DNA of 64,000 bases. It comes from Vibrio gazogenes. Its GTDB lineage: Bacteria > Pseudomonadota > Gammaproteobacteria > Enterobacterales > Vibrionaceae. The position numbers and the translations under genes were made by a program. The stretch lies in the NCBI RefSeq assembly GCF_002196515.1, contig NZ_CP018836.1, positions 124,001-188,000 of the forward strand. Direction: 5' to 3'. Each line of letters opens with the position of its first letter. Within the stretch, counting starts at the first letter, position 1. A model generated the notes under the pieces. The model was not told the origin of the DNA. It saw only the letters and a program-made list of their open reading frames with translations, and made no database searches. Positions 1,320 to 24,161 of the stretch are shown in pieces.

Positions 1320-2771
1320 TCAGAATCCTCGCATCTGAATACGACGCAGAAATTCGGTCATGATTCGATCGTAGAGGAGGTCCCCTAAGAACGCATCTTC
1401 AACATGATGATCGATACTCGGATTATCATTGACTTCAATGACATACACCTGACCGTTGATCTCTTTTAAATCCACGCCATATAAACCATTACCGATTAAA
1501 TTGGCGGCTTTCAGGGCGGTGTCGATGACATGTTTGGGCACTTGTTTGAGATCCAAAGTTTCAAAACTGCCGGACGTTGTTCTGCCATTGTTATGGTGGT
1601 GATATATCTGCCAGTGGCCGCGGCTCATCATGTATTTACATGAGAAAATCGCTTGTCGATTGAGAATTCCGATACGCCAGTCAAAGTCGGTTGGCATGAA
1701 TGCCTGAGCCAAAATCAGCGCACTTTTCTCAAACAGCAATGCTGCTTCTTGATTGAGCGAGTTTATATCCGTTACTTTGATGACACCCCGTGAGAACGCA
1801 CCATCGGGAATTTTTAACACCATCGGGAATGATAGCTCAGAGAGTAGCTTTTCCTGCCAGTCCGGATCGAAGCTCTGCACAATCACACTTTTTGGGGTAG
1901 GTATATGATTGCGTTGCAACAATTCGGTCAGAAAAACTTTATTGGTGCATTTCATAATGGATTCGGAATCATCCATTACAACTAATCCCATTTTTTCTGC
2001 CGTCTTTGCAAAACGATAGGTCTCATTGCTGATGTTGGTGGTTGCACGAATAAATAGCCCGTCAAACTCGCCCAAACGAGAGAGATGCTCCGCTGTAATG
2101 GTTTCCAGATTCATGCCTAATCGTTGGGCTGCTTTCTGGAAGCGCTTGAGTGCGGCTTTATCCGACGGGGGCATTTTTTCCTCTGGGTCGGTCAGCATTG
2201 CCAGATCATAGCGAGAGGCTTTGTTTTGTTTGGGCGTTTTCCACACTTTGCGGGAAAACTTTTCCAGCGATTCAATAAAGAAATCCTGCTCCGGGTCGGT
2301 TAGATCCTGAAACGGAAATGGCTGAATTGATTTGATATGCCACTGCTGGTTATGTCTTGATAGCTCTAGATGAATCACCGGAATCATGAATTGTTCAAAC
2401 AAATGACGTGCCAGCTTCTCTAACCCGTTTTGTGGTGTGCGGCCAAAATAAATTTTGCACTGCAACGCATGTTCGGACGGATAGAGTTTATTCAGCTTGA
2501 GTAGATTCGAAGAGTGCAGAAATGGCTGATGGATATCATTGATCGCCATGACTCGGGGAATCACGCGGTGTCCTCTCGCTTCTGCCATCAGTGAGCAATA
2601 GTACCCACTGCTCATATAGTCGTAACTGCGGCATAAATTGACGATCTGAATCGACTTATGGGTCGGTTTCCAGTTGGTGTTCAGGTAGCTTTGAACGCTG
2701 ATAACCTGATCGGAAGGGAAATATTGGTGCCAGTCATTGGTGTGATCGGTCACAATAAAAAGATTTGCCAT
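1320..2771 (-). CDS. RimK-like ATP-grasp ligase with N-terminal RLAN-type domain
   Basis: A 483-residue protein. Residues about 1-200 form an N-terminal region as in RimK-like proteins (starts MANLFIVTDHTNDWHQYFPS). The ATP-grasp fold follows from about 210. Visible motifs are the ATP-binding VLKIPDGAFSRGVIKV, the acidic AQAFMPTDFDWRIGI and the metal-binding end VIEVNDNPSIDHHVEDAF with Asp, Glu and Asn ligands. ATP-grasp enzymes of this type join amino acids to a carboxylate through an acylphosphate; RimK itself adds glutamate to ribosomal protein S6. This protein is longer than RimK (about 300 residues), and its substrate is unknown. It is divergent from, and 114 bases away from, a GNAT-peptidase C39 fusion gene, which suggests a shared pathway that modifies and cleaves a peptide. 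Family assignment is secure, function is not. Confidence 0.85.
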   Translation of the reverse strand: MANLFIVTDHTNDWHQYFPSDQVISVQSYLNTNWKPTHKSIQIVNLCRSYDYMSSGYYCSLMAEARGHRVIPRVMAINDIHQPFLHSSNLLKLNKLYPSEHALQCKIYFGRTPQNGLEKLARHLFEQFMIPVIHLELSRHNQQWHIKSIQPFPFQDLTDPEQDFFIESLEKFSRKVWKTPKQNKASRYDLAMLTDPEEKMPPSDKAALKRFQKAAQRLGMNLETITAEHLSRLGEFDGLFIRATTNISNETYRFAKTAEKMGLVVMDDSESIMKCTNKVFLTELLQRNHIPTPKSVIVQSFDPDWQEKLLSELSFPMVLKIPDGAFSRGVIKVTDINSLNQEAALLFEKSALILAQAFMPTDFDWRIGILNRQAIFSCKYMMSRGHWQIYHHHNNGRTTSGSFETLDLKQVPKHVIDTALKAANLIGNGLYGVDLKEINGQVYVIEVNDNPSIDHHVEDAFLGDLLYDRIMTEFLRRIQMRGF

Positions 2772-2885
2772 GGCTTATCATTCCGGTTGCATGATACTTC
2801 GTCTCTTATGAGGATAAGTCTCTTGTCGAGAGGAAAGTATCGACATAATATTGCATCGCAATCTTCTAACCTTTTGAGGCATCGT

Positions 2886-4022
2886 ATGGACATTCGTCAT
2901 GCGAACCACACTGATCTTTCTGCGCTAAATGCACTAGAGCAACAGCTTTTCACCGGAGACAAAATCTCACCACGTCAAATGCGGCGGTTTCTGAAATCGG
3001 CACATGCTGCCATTTTTGTTGCCGAATCGGGCACACAATTGGCTGGCTATGCTTTACTTCTGTTTCACCAAGGTACACAGCTATCAAGGTTGTATTCGAT
3101 TGCCGTAAACCCTGACTTCAGAGGCCGAGGCATTGCCCAACAACTGGTGGGACAATGTGAGCGTGCAGCTCTTGATCAAGGTGCTTGTACATTACGACTA
3201 GAAGTCAGGGATGACAATAGGGCAGCGTTAAAATTATATGAAAAAATGGGCTATAAACGGCTCAAAATACTGGTGCATTATTACGATGATCAATGCGACG
3301 GGATTCGGATGCAAAAACGGCTCGATCCACATGAACCCCGTTTGGAAATTCCCGTGCCTCTTTATGTCCAGACAACCCCGTTTACATGTGGTGCGGCTTG
3401 TCTGTTGATGAGCTTTGCGCGCTTTGAGCCTGCAACCGAACTGACCCGGACTCATGAGCTACAGTTATGGCGAGAGGCAACCACGATCTACATGACATCG
3501 GGACATGGCGGATGTAGCGGACACGGCTTGGCACTGGCGGCGGCACGGCGAGGATTTGAGGTTGAGCTATGGAGTCGCTCTTCGACGGTGCCATTCATTG
3601 ATGGTGTGCGAGACCTGAATAAAAAGTCGGTGATTGAATTAGTCCATCAGGATTTTTGTCAGCAGTTGGCTGGGTATTCGAATGTCACAGTGACTGATAT
3701 GCCGCCGACACAAGCTCAGTTTGAGGGGTGGTTGGAAGAGGGGGCGAGTGTTTTATTGCTAATCAGCACTTATCGGTTTACGGGAAACAAAGAACCGCAC
3801 TGGATTTTACTCAGTGGTATGAGTGAACACTTTTTCTTTATTCATGATCCACATGTTGATGATCAGTCTGAGGTCGTTTCTGCTGCTTACATTCCGGTCG
3901 GCAAAGCGGTTCTCGCACAAATCATTGGCTATGGCAAACAGAAGCAGACATCTTGTGTGGTGATCCGTAAGGGGAAAGCACTTGAACTATCGAATGAAGC
4001 GATTGAATTGAGTTACGCCTAA
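2886..4022 (+). CDS. GNAT acetyltransferase fused to peptidase C39-like domain
   Basis: A 378-residue two-domain protein. Residues 1-150 are a RimI-like GNAT N-acetyltransferase; the acetyl-CoA loop is visible in SIAVNPDFRGRGIAQQL, followed by LEVRDDNRAALKLYEKMGY. Residues about 165-370 are a C39-like cysteine peptidase. The candidate Cys lies in QTTPFTCGAACLLMSF, the His in EPHWILLSG and the Asp in FIHDPHVD, so the triad looks intact. C39 peptidases usually remove leader peptides from bacteriocins, but this one lacks the ABC-transporter parts. The start at 2886 (MDIRHANHTDLS) fits the GNAT fold; an upstream in-frame ATG at 2658 would run into the divergent gene. Pairing with the ATP-grasp ligase suggests joint modification of a peptide; this is inference. 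Confidence 0.85.
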   Translation: MDIRHANHTDLSALNALEQQLFTGDKISPRQMRRFLKSAHAAIFVAESGTQLAGYALLLFHQGTQLSRLYSIAVNPDFRGRGIAQQLVGQCERAALDQGACTLRLEVRDDNRAALKLYEKMGYKRLKILVHYYDDQCDGIRMQKRLDPHEPRLEIPVPLYVQTTPFTCGAACLLMSFARFEPATELTRTHELQLWREATTIYMTSGHGGCSGHGLALAAARRGFEVELWSRSSTVPFIDGVRDLNKKSVIELVHQDFCQQLAGYSNVTVTDMPPTQAQFEGWLEEGASVLLLISTYRFTGNKEPHWILLSGMSEHFFFIHDPHVDDQSEVVSAAYIPVGKAVLAQIIGYGKQKQTSCVVIRKGKALELSNEAIELSYA

Positions 4023-17863: not shown

Positions 17864-18158
17864 AAAAGCCTCGCTGTACGTTGAAAATACACCCTTGAAT
17901 CTCGGTGACTGAGATTCACTTAAGCAGTTTAATGCATATATTGCTGATGAATGTGTCGTGGCGGTCAACTATTGTGAAAAAGGATGCCGTCATCGGCGAA
18001 TCGCGATGAGCATGCCACGGTAACTGGCAACACGTTGTGATGGTGTAAAATTGTAAAATCAGGTCAGATTTCCATAAGCTTTTCCCTGTCATGTCTCGTA
18101 ATCTAAGAAGCTCAGACATGTTTGTTCTGAAATAATGTTGCACAAGGATTCCGTGTTG

Positions 18159-19214
18159 ATGATTATTTTCCGTCCCGCTCAATTGAGTGATATCCAACAA
18201 ATCGAACGTTTGGCCCATGAAAGCGGTCCGATGGTGTATACCTTACCTGCGCAGCGTTCTCATCTGATTAAGAAAGTCGAACGTTCAATCGATTCGTTTC
18301 GGCAAGCGGTTTTCTCTCCGGGTGAGGAGAGTTATTTTTTCGTGCTGGAAGAAACGCTGACCGGACAAATTCTCGGAACGGGTGCAATCAACGCACTGGC
18401 CGGATACCAGGAACCCTTTTACGCGCTACGTAACGATATCTTGATCCATTCCTCCCGGGAGTTGAAAGTTCATAGCCGTATTCATGCGCTGACCATGACC
18501 CATGATCTGAGTGACCACTCTCAGCTTTGCTCTTTCTATGTGATTCCGTCATTGAAAAATAGCCTCTATCCGGCGCTGATTACCTTAGGCAGATTGCTGT
18601 TTATGTCGATCCATCCGGAGCGCTTTACAACCGATTGGCTGGCCGTGATTCCGGGCGTGGCGGATGAAGATGGCCGCGCTCCGTTTTGGGAACATGTAGG
18701 CAGAAAATTTTTCCGGATCGATTACAACCAAGTGGAATACTACAACGGTACCCGGGATAAAACGTTTATTGCCGAACTGATGCCACATCATCCGCTGTAT
18801 GTACCTCTGATTCATGAAGAAGCCCAAGCGGTGATGGGGCAGGTCCATCCCGATGCGGCACTACAATGTGGATTACTGAGTGATCAGGGCTTTGAGCCGG
18901 ATAAATATGTTGAAATTTTCGATGCCGGTCCGATTCTGACGGCGAACCGAAATACGCTCGATATCTGGCAGCATCATAAATTGTGCCGCGTAAAAGTTGT
19001 CGAGGGGCTTCCCCAACGCAGAACATATTTGATAGGCGTCAGTCATGAGACAGATTTCCGTGCGGTGATGGGAGAAGGATGGCTGGAAGGGTCGACGTTG
19101 TTGCTTGAGCCACAAACGTTGCAGATGCTGGCAATGCGTCATCCAGACGGCATTGAGACGGGAAACCAGATCTGGTGTTTTCCTGTCAGTGACACAGCTG
19201 AAACTCGTCTATAG
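18159..19214 (+). CDS. aruF: Arginine/ornithine N-succinyltransferase, alpha subunit
   Basis: A 351-residue AstA-family acyltransferase, closest in pattern to AruF of Pseudomonas: EESYFFVLEETLTGQILG near residue 57, LSDHSQLCSFYV near 120, GRLLFMSIHPERF near 145, APFWEHVGRKFF near 170, FIAELMPHHPLYV near 203 and GQVHPDAAL near 225. It forms a heteromer with AruG that transfers succinyl from succinyl-CoA to L-arginine, the first step of the arginine succinyltransferase pathway. ATG at 18159 is preceded by AAGGA at 10 bases; a GTG at 18153 is an alternative. First gene of aruF-aruG-astD-astB-astE; the gap to aruG is 30 bases. Confidence 0.9.
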   Translation: MIIFRPAQLSDIQQIERLAHESGPMVYTLPAQRSHLIKKVERSIDSFRQAVFSPGEESYFFVLEETLTGQILGTGAINALAGYQEPFYALRNDILIHSSRELKVHSRIHALTMTHDLSDHSQLCSFYVIPSLKNSLYPALITLGRLLFMSIHPERFTTDWLAVIPGVADEDGRAPFWEHVGRKFFRIDYNQVEYYNGTRDKTFIAELMPHHPLYVPLIHEEAQAVMGQVHPDAALQCGLLSDQGFEPDKYVEIFDAGPILTANRNTLDIWQHHKLCRVKVVEGLPQRRTYLIGVSHETDFRAVMGEGWLEGSTLLLEPQTLQMLAMRHPDGIETGNQIWCFPVSDTAETRL

Positions 19215-19244
19215 TGAACATAAACCATTCAGGGATAATGAAAA

Positions 19245-21769
<2,525 letters not shown>

Positions 21770-21786
21770 ACCGTGAGGTGTATGGA

Positions 21787-23151
21787 ATGACTCAAGAAAA
21801 ACAATCGCGCATGTCGGCCGCTGAAGTTAATTTTGATGGTTTAGTCGGGTTGACGCACAACTATGCAGGGTTGTCATTCGGCAATGTTGCTTCGACCAGC
21901 AACAAGAGTCAGGCTGCGAATCCGAAGTTGGCAGCACTGCAAGGGTTGCAGAAGATGAAAGCATTAGCGGACCTCGGCCTAAAACAGGGGATTCTGCCAC
22001 CTCAGGAGCGGCCTTGTATCGGGACGTTACGCCGGTTGGGATTTTCCGGAACCGATGCTCAGGTGCTAACGCAGGCCGCGCAGCAAGCCCCGGAAATTCT
22101 CACCGCAGTGAGTTCTGCTTCTTCTATGTGGGTCGCGAATGCGGCCACGATTTCCCCGTCGGCAGATACATACGATCAACGGGTACATTTTACGGTGGCG
22201 AATCTGAATAATAAATTCCACCGGGCCATTGAAGAAGAGACCACAGGCAATGCACTGCGCAGTATTTTTTCCGACCCTGATCATTTTGTCCATCATGCAG
22301 CATTGCCACAGCAAGCGGTGATGGGGGACGAAGGCGCTGCCAACCATAATCGTTTATGTTCGCATTATGGGAGCGCAGGTGTGGAAGTCTTTGTCTATGG
22401 CCGTCAGGTTTATGGTGGGCGAGTCGAGCCAAAACGCTATCCTGCACGCCAGACCCGTGAAGCCAGCCAAGCCATTGCCCGTCTCCATCAATTGGATCCG
22501 GCAAAGACGGTTTTTGTCCAGCAGAATCCCGAAGTGATTGATCAAGGGGTATTTCATAATGACGTGATTTCCGTGAGTAACGGTCCGGTGCTGTTTCATC
22601 ATCAGGAAGCATTTCTCAACCCATCTGCGGCATTTGCTGAGATTCGCGCCAAACTTGCTGCGGTTGAGTGTGAATTTATTCCGATCGAAGTTCCGAGTGC
22701 ACAGGTATCAGTTGCTGACGCAGTTAACACTTATCTGTTTAATAGCCAGCTTTTAACCAAACCCGATGGTAAGATGCTGATTGTCGTCCCGCAGGAAGCC
22801 CGGGAGCATGAAAGGGTGTGGCGCTATCTTTCTGAGCTGATACAACGCGATGGTCCGATCGATGCAGTGCAGGTCTTTAATTTACGGGAAAGTATGCGTA
22901 ATGGCGGCGGTCCGGCTTGTTTACGTTTACGTGTTGTTTTGAATGAAGCTGAACTTCAGGCAACCAATCCGCACGTACTGATGAATGATGATGTTTACCG
23001 GACGCTCACGAACTGGGTCGAGAGACATTATCGCGATCGCCTGTCGGAATATGATCTGGCTGATCCTCAGTTGCTGCTCGAGAACCAGACCGCGCTGGAT
23101 GAATTGACCCGGATTCTGCATTTAGGATCCATCTATCCGTTCCAGCGTTAA
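21787..23151 (+). CDS. astB: N-succinylarginine dihydrolase
   Basis: A 454-residue enzyme of the amidinotransferase-type fold that hydrolyses succinylarginine to succinylornithine, CO2 and two ammonia. Typical sequence: [24 protein letters not shown] near the start, [19 protein letters not shown]-like [21 protein letters not shown] near 257 with the catalytic His, and [16 protein letters not shown] with the catalytic Cys. ATG at 21787 lies 9 bases after GAGG; an in-frame GTG at 21778 sits inside that ribosome site. Follows astD by 17 bases. Confidence 0.95.
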
Positions 23152-23171
23152 TCGGTAGGAAGGAGAATAAG

Positions 23172-24161
23172 ATGAAGGATTTTCTTCACACGATGTTACA
23201 AGGACAGCCACCGCAAGAGACCTCTGGTGAAAACGCTGAGTTAACCTGGCAATGGCTGGCGGATGGTGTCTTGCTGCTGGAGCCGAAAGTTGTGGCGGAT
23301 GATATCAAACATGTGTTGATGTCGGCTGGTGTGCATGGCAATGAAACGGCCCCGATAGAAATTCTGTCTCGACACGTCAACCGTTTATTAAGCGGGGAAA
23401 TACCACTGGCAGTTCGCTTGTTGGTGGTGCTTGGCAATCCGGATGCCATTCGGGCCGGGGTTCGCTACCAATCGGTGGATCTGAATCGATTATTTCATGG
23501 TTACCACCGTCATTATCCGGCGTGCTCGGAGACTCAGCGCGCGATTGAGTTGGAAAACATTGTCGAAACATTTTTTGCCGATACCAGCACCGAACGATTT
23601 CATTTTGATTTACATACCGCGATTCGCGAATCCTTTCATCTCCGTTTCGGAGTGTTACCGCAAAAGACACTGGCTTCAGACGATTTTCTCCACGGCTTGA
23701 TTGGTATGGGACTGGAAGCGTTGGTGATTAACCCGATTCCCGGTGGCACATTCAGTTACTACACCCATGCCGCGTTGCAGGTGCAGAGTTGTACGCTGGA
23801 ATTAGGCAAAGTCCGACCATTCGGTGAAAATGACCTCAGCCAGTTTGCCGCTGCCGACAGAGCGCTGGAATGCTTTATTTGCGGGGAAGCTTTTTCTGCC
23901 GATATGTTGGCACCAATTAAGGTTTATCAGGTTGTCCGTGAACTGAAAAAGTTGTCGGATGATTTTCATTTTATTGATGTCAGTGATGATGCCAAAAACT
24001 TCACCAGTTTTTCTCAAGGGACGTTAATTGCCCAAGATGGCGATGTGATGTATCGGGTTGAACGCGGCAATGAATGGCTGATTTTCCCGAATGCCGGGGT
24101 GAAGACCGGCTTGCGTGCAGGTTTGATGCTGGCAGAGGCCGATATCGATGCATTAATGTGA
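23172..24161 (+). CDS. astE: Succinylglutamate desuccinylase
   Basis: A 329-residue zinc hydrolase of the AstE/AspA family that splits succinylglutamate into succinate and glutamate, the last step of the pathway. Zinc ligands: His and Glu in GVHGNETAPIE near residue 53, and His in FHFDLHTAIRESFHLRFG near 143. A catalytic Glu is in SCTLELGKVRPFG near 210. It has a strong AAGGAGAA ribosome site and ends the operon, converging with the diguanylate cyclase gene 26 bases away. Confidence 0.95.
   Translation: MKDFLHTMLQGQPPQETSGENAELTWQWLADGVLLLEPKVVADDIKHVLMSAGVHGNETAPIEILSRHVNRLLSGEIPLAVRLLVVLGNPDAIRAGVRYQSVDLNRLFHGYHRHYPACSETQRAIELENIVETFFADTSTERFHFDLHTAIRESFHLRFGVLPQKTLASDDFLHGLIGMGLEALVINPIPGGTFSYYTHAALQVQSCTLELGKVRPFGENDLSQFAAADRALECFICGEAFSADMLAPIKVYQVVRELKKLSDDFHFIDVSDDAKNFTSFSQGTLIAQDGDVMYRVERGNEWLIFPNAGVKTGLRAGLMLAEADIDALM

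Follow-up and report, generated by a model that had tools for sequence, protein, structure and literature searches.

A divergent gene pair in Vibrio gazogenes

The subject of this analysis is a pair of genes carried on a 64,000-nucleotide stretch of DNA from Vibrio gazogenes (NZ_CP018836.1, positions 124,001 to 188,000; hereafter 'the window'), which is located on contig 2 of the genome, whose size is 4.79 Mb. The minus-strand gene codes for an ATP-grasp ligase with an N-terminal RLAN domain, and the plus-strand gene codes for a single protein that joins a GNAT acetyltransferase to a C39/papain-like DUF3335 domain. A preliminary description of this DNA placed the two genes head to head and 114 bases apart, and both the open reading frames (ORFs) and the gap between them are confirmed here. 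The features of the locus, with domains assigned by Pfam, are as follows.

1320..2771, minus strand: RLAN-RimK-like ATP-grasp ligase gene, 483 amino acids
2271..2693, minus strand: RLAN domain, residues 27-167 (PF14401, 150.6 bits)
1407..1943, minus strand: RimK-type ATP-grasp domain, residues 277-455 (PF08443)
2772..2885, no strand: divergent intergenic region, 114 bases
2886..4022, plus strand: GNAT-DUF3335 fusion gene, 378 amino acids
2886..3326, plus strand: GNAT domain, RimI/Ard1-like, residues 1-147 (PF00583)
3354..3968, plus strand: DUF3335 C39/papain-like domain, residues 157-361 (PF11814, 254.6 bits)
3387..3389, plus strand: codon for the putative catalytic Cys168
3798..3800, plus strand: codon for the putative catalytic His305
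3846..3848, plus strand: codon for the putative catalytic Asp321

An RLAN ligase with conserved ATP-grasp residues

The ligase exhibits the two features by which the RLAN-ATP-grasp family is recognized, namely an RLAN match above its cut-off (150.6 versus 25 bits) and, after it, a RimK-like ATP-grasp domain (38.5 versus 21 bits). What had been described as an extended N-terminal domain is this named Pfam domain, RLAN. Six residues (K278, K320, R366, D434, E446 and N448) are invariant in alignments of 35 sequences (A1) and 45 sequences (A3), and align with the ATP and metal ligands of RimK (5zct); such residues have well-known roles in ATP and metal binding among ATP-grasp enzymes. In a comparison from which records of its own genome were possibly excluded, the ligase has its nearest named relatives in Vibrio sp. 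Y2-5 and Vibrio ordalii, each with 78% identity.

A model of the whole ligase has a mean predicted local distance difference test score (pLDDT) of 82, and residues 184-483 were used for structure searches. On this model, LysX (3vpd; Z 28.1, root-mean-square deviation (rmsd) 2.2, 268 residues aligned), ArgX (3vpb; Z 27.8, rmsd 2.5, 269 aligned) and RimK (7qys; Z 27.4, rmsd 2.7, 274 aligned) are tied as structural matches. All three enzymes add amino acids to a carboxyl end. The leading positions of LysX and ArgX would suit amino-group carrier chemistry of the type these enzymes conduct with LysW, wherein the ligase would load its substrate on a small carrier protein. However, these matches are tied with RimK, the LysX equivalog model (TIGR02144) scores 73 against a cut-off of 275.6, and no conserved carrier-like small ORF was found within 1.2 kb, although the whole genome was not searched for a LysW-like gene. 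We consider carrier chemistry to be improbable.

The same structural matches bear on another explanation, in which the ligase would extend the C-terminus of a cellular protein, DUF3335 would remove the extension, and the GNAT would acetylate the tail or the target. The closest structural matches are RimK and LysX/ArgX, and the portions of PMC12239564 that deal with RimK present it as an enzyme that modifies a protein and that forms a writer-eraser pair with RimB. Against this stands the presence in the same genome of a separate and stronger RimK match (C1:1052631; 234.8 bits) that adjoins a RimB-type PF05618 gene (C1:1051918). Moreover, the RimK S6-ligase models score below their cut-offs on the ligase in the window (NF007764, 22.3 versus 331; TIGR00768, 81 versus 143.4). 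Protein tagging is possible, though we regard it as doubtful, and the partners of RLAN in other operons, described below, speak further against it.

A GNAT-DUF3335 fusion with conserved putative catalytic residues

In the fusion, a GNAT domain (71.9 bits, cut-off 20.7) precedes DUF3335 (254.6 bits, cut-off 25). The frame also includes an in-frame start at position 2658; we prefer the start at 2886 because the upstream alternative would overlap the ligase gene, and because the frames of close relatives (loci L075-L077, L079 and L080) begin at the position equivalent to 2886.

The model of the whole fusion has a mean pLDDT of 90. When residues 1-150 were used for structure searches, the matches to the GNAT half were N-terminal acetyltransferases, with Ard1 and RimI structures yielding Z values of about 23 (rmsd 1.3-1.7, 142-147 residues aligned). 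Ard1 (6ag4; Z 23.1, rmsd 1.3, 144 aligned) and RimI (2cnm; Z 22.6, rmsd 1.6, 147 aligned) are tied, and the RimI model TIGR01575 falls just below its cut-off (85.1 versus 86.4).

The second half of the fusion had been called an apparently intact C39 peptidase. The putative active site does appear to be intact from sequence comparison, with Gln162, Cys168, His305 and Asp321 each unchanged across all 29 aligned fusions, that of the window among them, which bears out the Cys/His conservation among orthologues that had been proposed as a check. The family name needs amending, as the domain belongs to DUF3335, a C39-like family, and the C39_2 model (PF13529) reaches 17, short of its cut-off of 24. 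When 120 distinct long frames, some of them fragments of the same gene, were scanned for motifs, the Cys motif was present in 118 and PHW in 117. Two of the three misses (L086 and L199) are GNAT-only frames by our reading, and the third (L148) reads LHW and keeps the His.

The two genes co-occur and are closely linked

A joint pathway had been inferred from this one locus, with genome co-occurrence proposed as the way to judge it. We used a class sample of 229 genomes (taken as Gammaproteobacteria) and a phylum sample of 249 genomes, which share some members. RLAN was found in 50 and strong DUF3335 matches (E below 1e-70) in 34 of the class-sample genomes: 33 carry both, one carries DUF3335 only (G213), 17 carry RLAN only, and 178 carry neither. 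Four genomes with weak DUF3335 matches (G064, G076, G109 and G176; E 1.7e-5 to 1.9e-4) are omitted from the 34; two of these (G064 and G176) carry RLAN, such that counting weak matches gives RLAN in 35 of 38 DUF3335 genomes. In the phylum sample, RLAN is present in 49 genomes, DUF3335 in 40, and both in 39. Fisher P values for co-occurrence, which ignore kinship, are 4e-26 (class) and 5e-35 (phylum). The pairing is far beyond chance, with kinship not corrected for.

Linkage is equally pronounced. Among the 33 class-sample genomes with both genes, 30 have them on one contig, all within 2 kb, and three have them on different contigs. The corresponding numbers for the phylum sample are 37 of 39 within 2 kb, one unlinked (G292) and one on different contigs (G464). 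The divergent arrangement emphasized for the window is real there; however, it is not essential, and codirectional layouts are more common. The class sample has 23 codirectional pairs with GNAT-DUF3335 first, six divergent pairs and one convergent pair, and the phylum sample has 22 codirectional pairs with GNAT-DUF3335 first, 13 divergent, one convergent, and one codirectional with GNAT-DUF3335 last.

Because the genes co-occur, are linked, and retain their catalytic residues, we conclude that the ligase and GNAT-DUF3335 very probably share one pathway, as had been proposed. That they are chance neighbours in separate pathways finds some encouragement in the unlinked genes of G292 and in genomes with DUF3335 and no RLAN (G213 and G293). 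Yet co-occurrence of 33/34 and 39/40, together with linkage of 30/33 and 37/39 in several orientations, renders this explanation extremely improbable.

RLAN ligases occur in approximately one fifth of the genomes in both samples, and also in Pseudomonas, Vibrio and methanotrophs. Within the genus the distribution is patchy, with RLAN in 9 of 61 genomes in a sample of relatives and in 5 of 37 within the genus (the genome of the window is counted in both). One same-genus locus (L173, 4496-5948) has RLAN/ATP-grasp in two frames beside a GNAT-DUF3335 gene in a single open frame, which suggests either a broken ligase gene or an assembly error. DUF3335 genes that lack GNAT were encountered as well. 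Two of them, approximately 9 kb apart (L223, 3989-5050 and 13045-14253), occur in G468 in addition to its linked pair, and a third (233 amino acids; L222, 3932-4633) adjoins a pyridine nucleotide-disulphide oxidoreductase gene in G293, which has no RLAN.

The peptidase domain is an optional partner

Neighbours within 4.5 kb were scored at the named loci, which are the 80 closest to the query ligase out of 584 confirmed matches. A divergent GNAT-DUF3335 gene is present in 37 of these loci, and in 13 more the same arrangement has a DUF2817 gene between the two. Another 24 have a GNAT without DUF3335, divergent in 23 cases; the exception is L086, where the frame with the GNAT match overlaps the ligase gene. 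Four loci are cut by a contig end (among them L091, with a piece of DUF2817). Thus, a GNAT lies near the ligase in 74 of the 80 loci, and four of the six others are those cut by a contig end. Among all ten RLAN genomes of the phylum sample that lack DUF3335, eight have a GNAT lacking this domain beside RLAN. The usual core is the ligase plus the acetyltransferase, and the peptidase domain is optional, because 24 of the 74 loci with a GNAT carry the GNAT alone.

Pfam assigns no function to DUF2817. Its members exhibit an invariant HxxE and a later His, a pattern reminiscent of M14 metallopeptidases. No DUF2817 match was obtained in the genome of the window, but the controls were silent too, so this search could not show absence. 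Sequence searches with one DUF2817 protein and one protein of the GCS2 family (see below) returned no relatives of solved structure at the cut-offs used.

A second RLAN operon type

The 17 class-sample RLAN genomes that lack strong DUF3335 matches reveal a different set of partners. In eight of them the gene order is C39 - RLAN - GCS2 - FGase, as represented by the operon at L155 (4213-8327) and similar ones at L156, L157, L158, L160, L161, L167 and L169; loci were assigned to this type through BLAST matches to the proteins of L155, for which the Pfam families had been verified. Two more (L162, cut by a contig end, and L163) have C39 - RLAN, three have a GNAT without DUF3335, and the remainder have other neighbours (L164; L165, with an FGase-domain gene; L166; and L171, with GCS2). 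At L164 (1539-5753), the RLAN gene is flanked by a radical SAM gene and a class III aminotransferase gene.

The C39 protein of the second operon resembles DUF3335 with an HHalign probability of 96%, and the Cys, His and Asp each align on their counterparts. Homology between FGase and DUF2817 was also considered and is not supported (HHalign probability 2.3%). The GCS2 and FGase families act on glutamate or its acyl forms. Their association with RLAN suits small molecules better than it suits the tagging of proteins.

A recurrent CorA-like neighbour

According to the preliminary description, the pair has neither a transporter gene nor a ribosomal protein gene as a neighbour. This holds for the window, where no CorA-like gene was found in the first 12 kb, but in relatives the ligase is often followed by a gene for a CorA-like transporter. 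In 23 of 211 RLAN loci, the gene that comes immediately after the ligase on its strand is of this type (PF01544); 112 of the 211 include at least 600 bases downstream, and some represent the same place. The 23 comprise 15 from Pseudomonas, the Vibrio loci L075 and L076, same-genus loci from G010 (three times), G023 and G034, and the distant L210. Four examples whose identity was checked by Pfam are as follows.

L075, 9554-10492: CorA-like gene downstream of the ligase
L173, 3494-4444: the same
L107, 9495-10433: the same
L210, 3056-4189: the same

A single-sequence search with a Pseudomonas CorA-like protein did not recover the Vibrio CorA-like proteins. Because this query missed the Vibrio proteins, we conclude that diverged CorA-like proteins recur in at least three lineages.

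No small ORF conserved across lineages was found

A conserved third small ORF, which had been suggested as something to look for, was not found; the recurring extra genes are the full-size DUF2817 and CorA-like genes. Our search covered ORFs of 15-70 codons within 1.2 kb of the genes and yielded 4501 candidates in 115 loci, window included. These form 267 clusters, the largest of which spans 14 loci. Inspection covered the 12 largest clusters, any with a member in the window or its closest relatives, and any that reach at least three hand-named groups; among these no small ORF is conserved across lineages. The small ORFs of the window belong to none of the clusters. Those inspected are confined to Pseudomonas or to Lysobacterales-like or closely similar loci, or they are located within, or on the strand opposite, neighbouring genes (CorA, for example); the exceptions are a cold-shock-like ORF common to L133 and L174, and one ORF common to L085, L147 and L155.

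This outcome matters for the view that the locus makes a ribosomally synthesized and post-translationally modified peptide (RiPP), wherein the ligase would modify a gene-encoded precursor, the GNAT would cap it, and the C39-like domain would remove a leader. GNATs are known from some RiPP clusters, and the relevant parts of PMC8939145 place ATP-grasp ligases and C39 peptidases in graspetide loci. A lineage-specific or distant precursor may exist. Nevertheless, the lack of a cross-lineage small ORF, the lack of an ATP-binding cassette (ABC) transporter among the tested neighbours in the window, and the occurrence of GNAT-only loci without the peptidase make a RiPP system unlikely.

A proposed pathway for a small capped peptide

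Taken together, these observations lead us to propose, with a probability of about 0.5, that the pair makes a small N-capped peptide and also turns it over. In an ATP-driven step, the RLAN/ATP-grasp enzyme would attach an amino acid to a carboxyl group of an acceptor, which is probably held by the RLAN domain; the amino acid is most likely glutamate or a similar dicarboxylic one. The GNAT would acetylate the free alpha-amino group of the acceptor or the product, and the Cys-His-Asp centre of DUF3335 might then trim the capped peptide or transfer its acyl part. In some lineages, the DUF2817 protein could join in turnover. We infer the order of these steps. A scheme that builds, caps and trims a short peptide is favored because relatives of the ligase, the acetyltransferase and the papain-like enzyme perform such steps. 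A small metabolite seems a better candidate than a protein tag for two reasons: RLAN has GCS2 and FGase partners in genomes lacking GNAT-DUF3335, and the genome of the window already has its stronger RimK match beside a RimB-type gene. The outcome of the small-ORF search, with none conserved across lineages among the clusters inspected, also agrees with this proposal. The term 'peptide-tailoring', applied earlier to this locus as a possibility, agrees with the families involved. The product, if found, would be either a novel metabolite in the form of a small peptide or a protein modification not described before, and the two-gene arrangement in the window is convenient for testing.

Several observations weigh against this proposal. 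First, RimK (with LysX/ArgX, the nearest characterized ligase) acts on a protein and RimI on a ribosomal protein, so a protein substrate also fits. Second, G292 carries RLAN plus GNAT at a distance of 2.1 Mb from GNAT-DUF3335-DUF2817 (loci L220/L221). Third, RLAN has no GNAT match nearby in L095 and L142, which are among the named loci, or in L210 and L215, which represent the other two DUF3335-less genomes of the phylum sample. Fourth, the recurrent CorA-like neighbour is unexplained by this proposal. Finally, a common hydrolase role for FGase and DUF2817 in the two operon types is conjectural, as their homology is not supported.

We also offer, as a tentative speculation, a broader model in which RLAN would be the hub of a widespread proteobacterial pathway that makes and recycles one kind of short glutamate-rich peptide through two interchangeable versions. 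The acetyl-capped version would comprise RLAN and GNAT, with DUF3335 and DUF2817 as additions, and the glutamyl-amide version would correspond to C39 - RLAN - GCS2 - FGase. The model also includes a possible role of the anionic peptide in divalent-metal handling, which is hinted at because a CorA-like gene recurs downstream of the ligase. Furthermore, the papain-like domain would be of the transferase type; phytochelatin synthase offers a comparison, as its papain-like domain acts as a transferase.

Relation to known systems

N-acetylglutaminylglutamine synthetase unites a GNAT and an ATP-grasp domain in one fused protein that makes an N-acetylated dipeptide. The window has these two components in common with that enzyme, but in two genes, and the corresponding model (TIGR03103) matches the GNAT half only weakly (30.4 versus cut-off 569). 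The C39 leader peptidases of ABC exporters share the papain-like Cys-His-Asp arrangement; the fusion, by contrast, has no transporter domain among Pfam matches with E up to 0.1, and DUF3335 is a separate Pfam family. RimK and RimB, which accomplish S6 glutamylation, likewise combine a RimK-type ATP-grasp enzyme with a peptidase partner. The pair in the window differs in its extra RLAN domain, its added GNAT and its papain-like peptidase, whereas RimB is a retropepsin. Iyer et al. 2009 (Mol Biosyst 5:1636) reportedly predicted amidoligase and peptide-ligase systems.

The sections of PMC12239564 on the rlo operon of Pseudomonas aeruginosa describe another ATP-grasp enzyme and peptidase in one operon (RloABC), but with a secreted retropepsin-like protease and a seven-transmembrane inactive transglutaminase rather than GNAT-DUF3335. 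Operons of R2K ATP-grasp and GNAT genes, for which acyl-capped ligation has been posited, involve an ATP-grasp clade different from that of the ligase, and as presented in the pertinent part of PMC4431377 they do not include DUF3335. A passage in PMC10318531, citing Iyer et al. 2009, reports frequent fusion of DUF3335 members to GNAT domains, which might function as peptide ligases or acetylases. All of the families are named in Pfam, and both they and the notion of such a pathway have been published before. Our search of open PMC full-text papers found no experimental study of the pair.

Surroundings of the pair

On one side, the tested flank of the pair is the start of a gene for an ExeM-like nuclease; on the other are gnd, pgl and zwf. 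A promoter shared by the pair was considered and rejected: two sigma-70-like sites were found versus 5.6 expected, and none was reported in the 114-base gap. Alignment of this gap with those of four relatives (five sequences) reveals poor likeness, except in part of the last approximately 45 bases before the GNAT start. The ExeM-like gene, which codes for an extracellular nuclease, is represented by its 5′ part (positions 2-1003) and is cut by the window edge. Farther along, positions 18135-24161 hold an ast operon (arginine succinyltransferase) in which two AstA-type genes are adjacent; the first scores below the AOST-alpha cut-off (386.2 versus 458.8) and the second above the AstA cut-off (501.7 versus 391).

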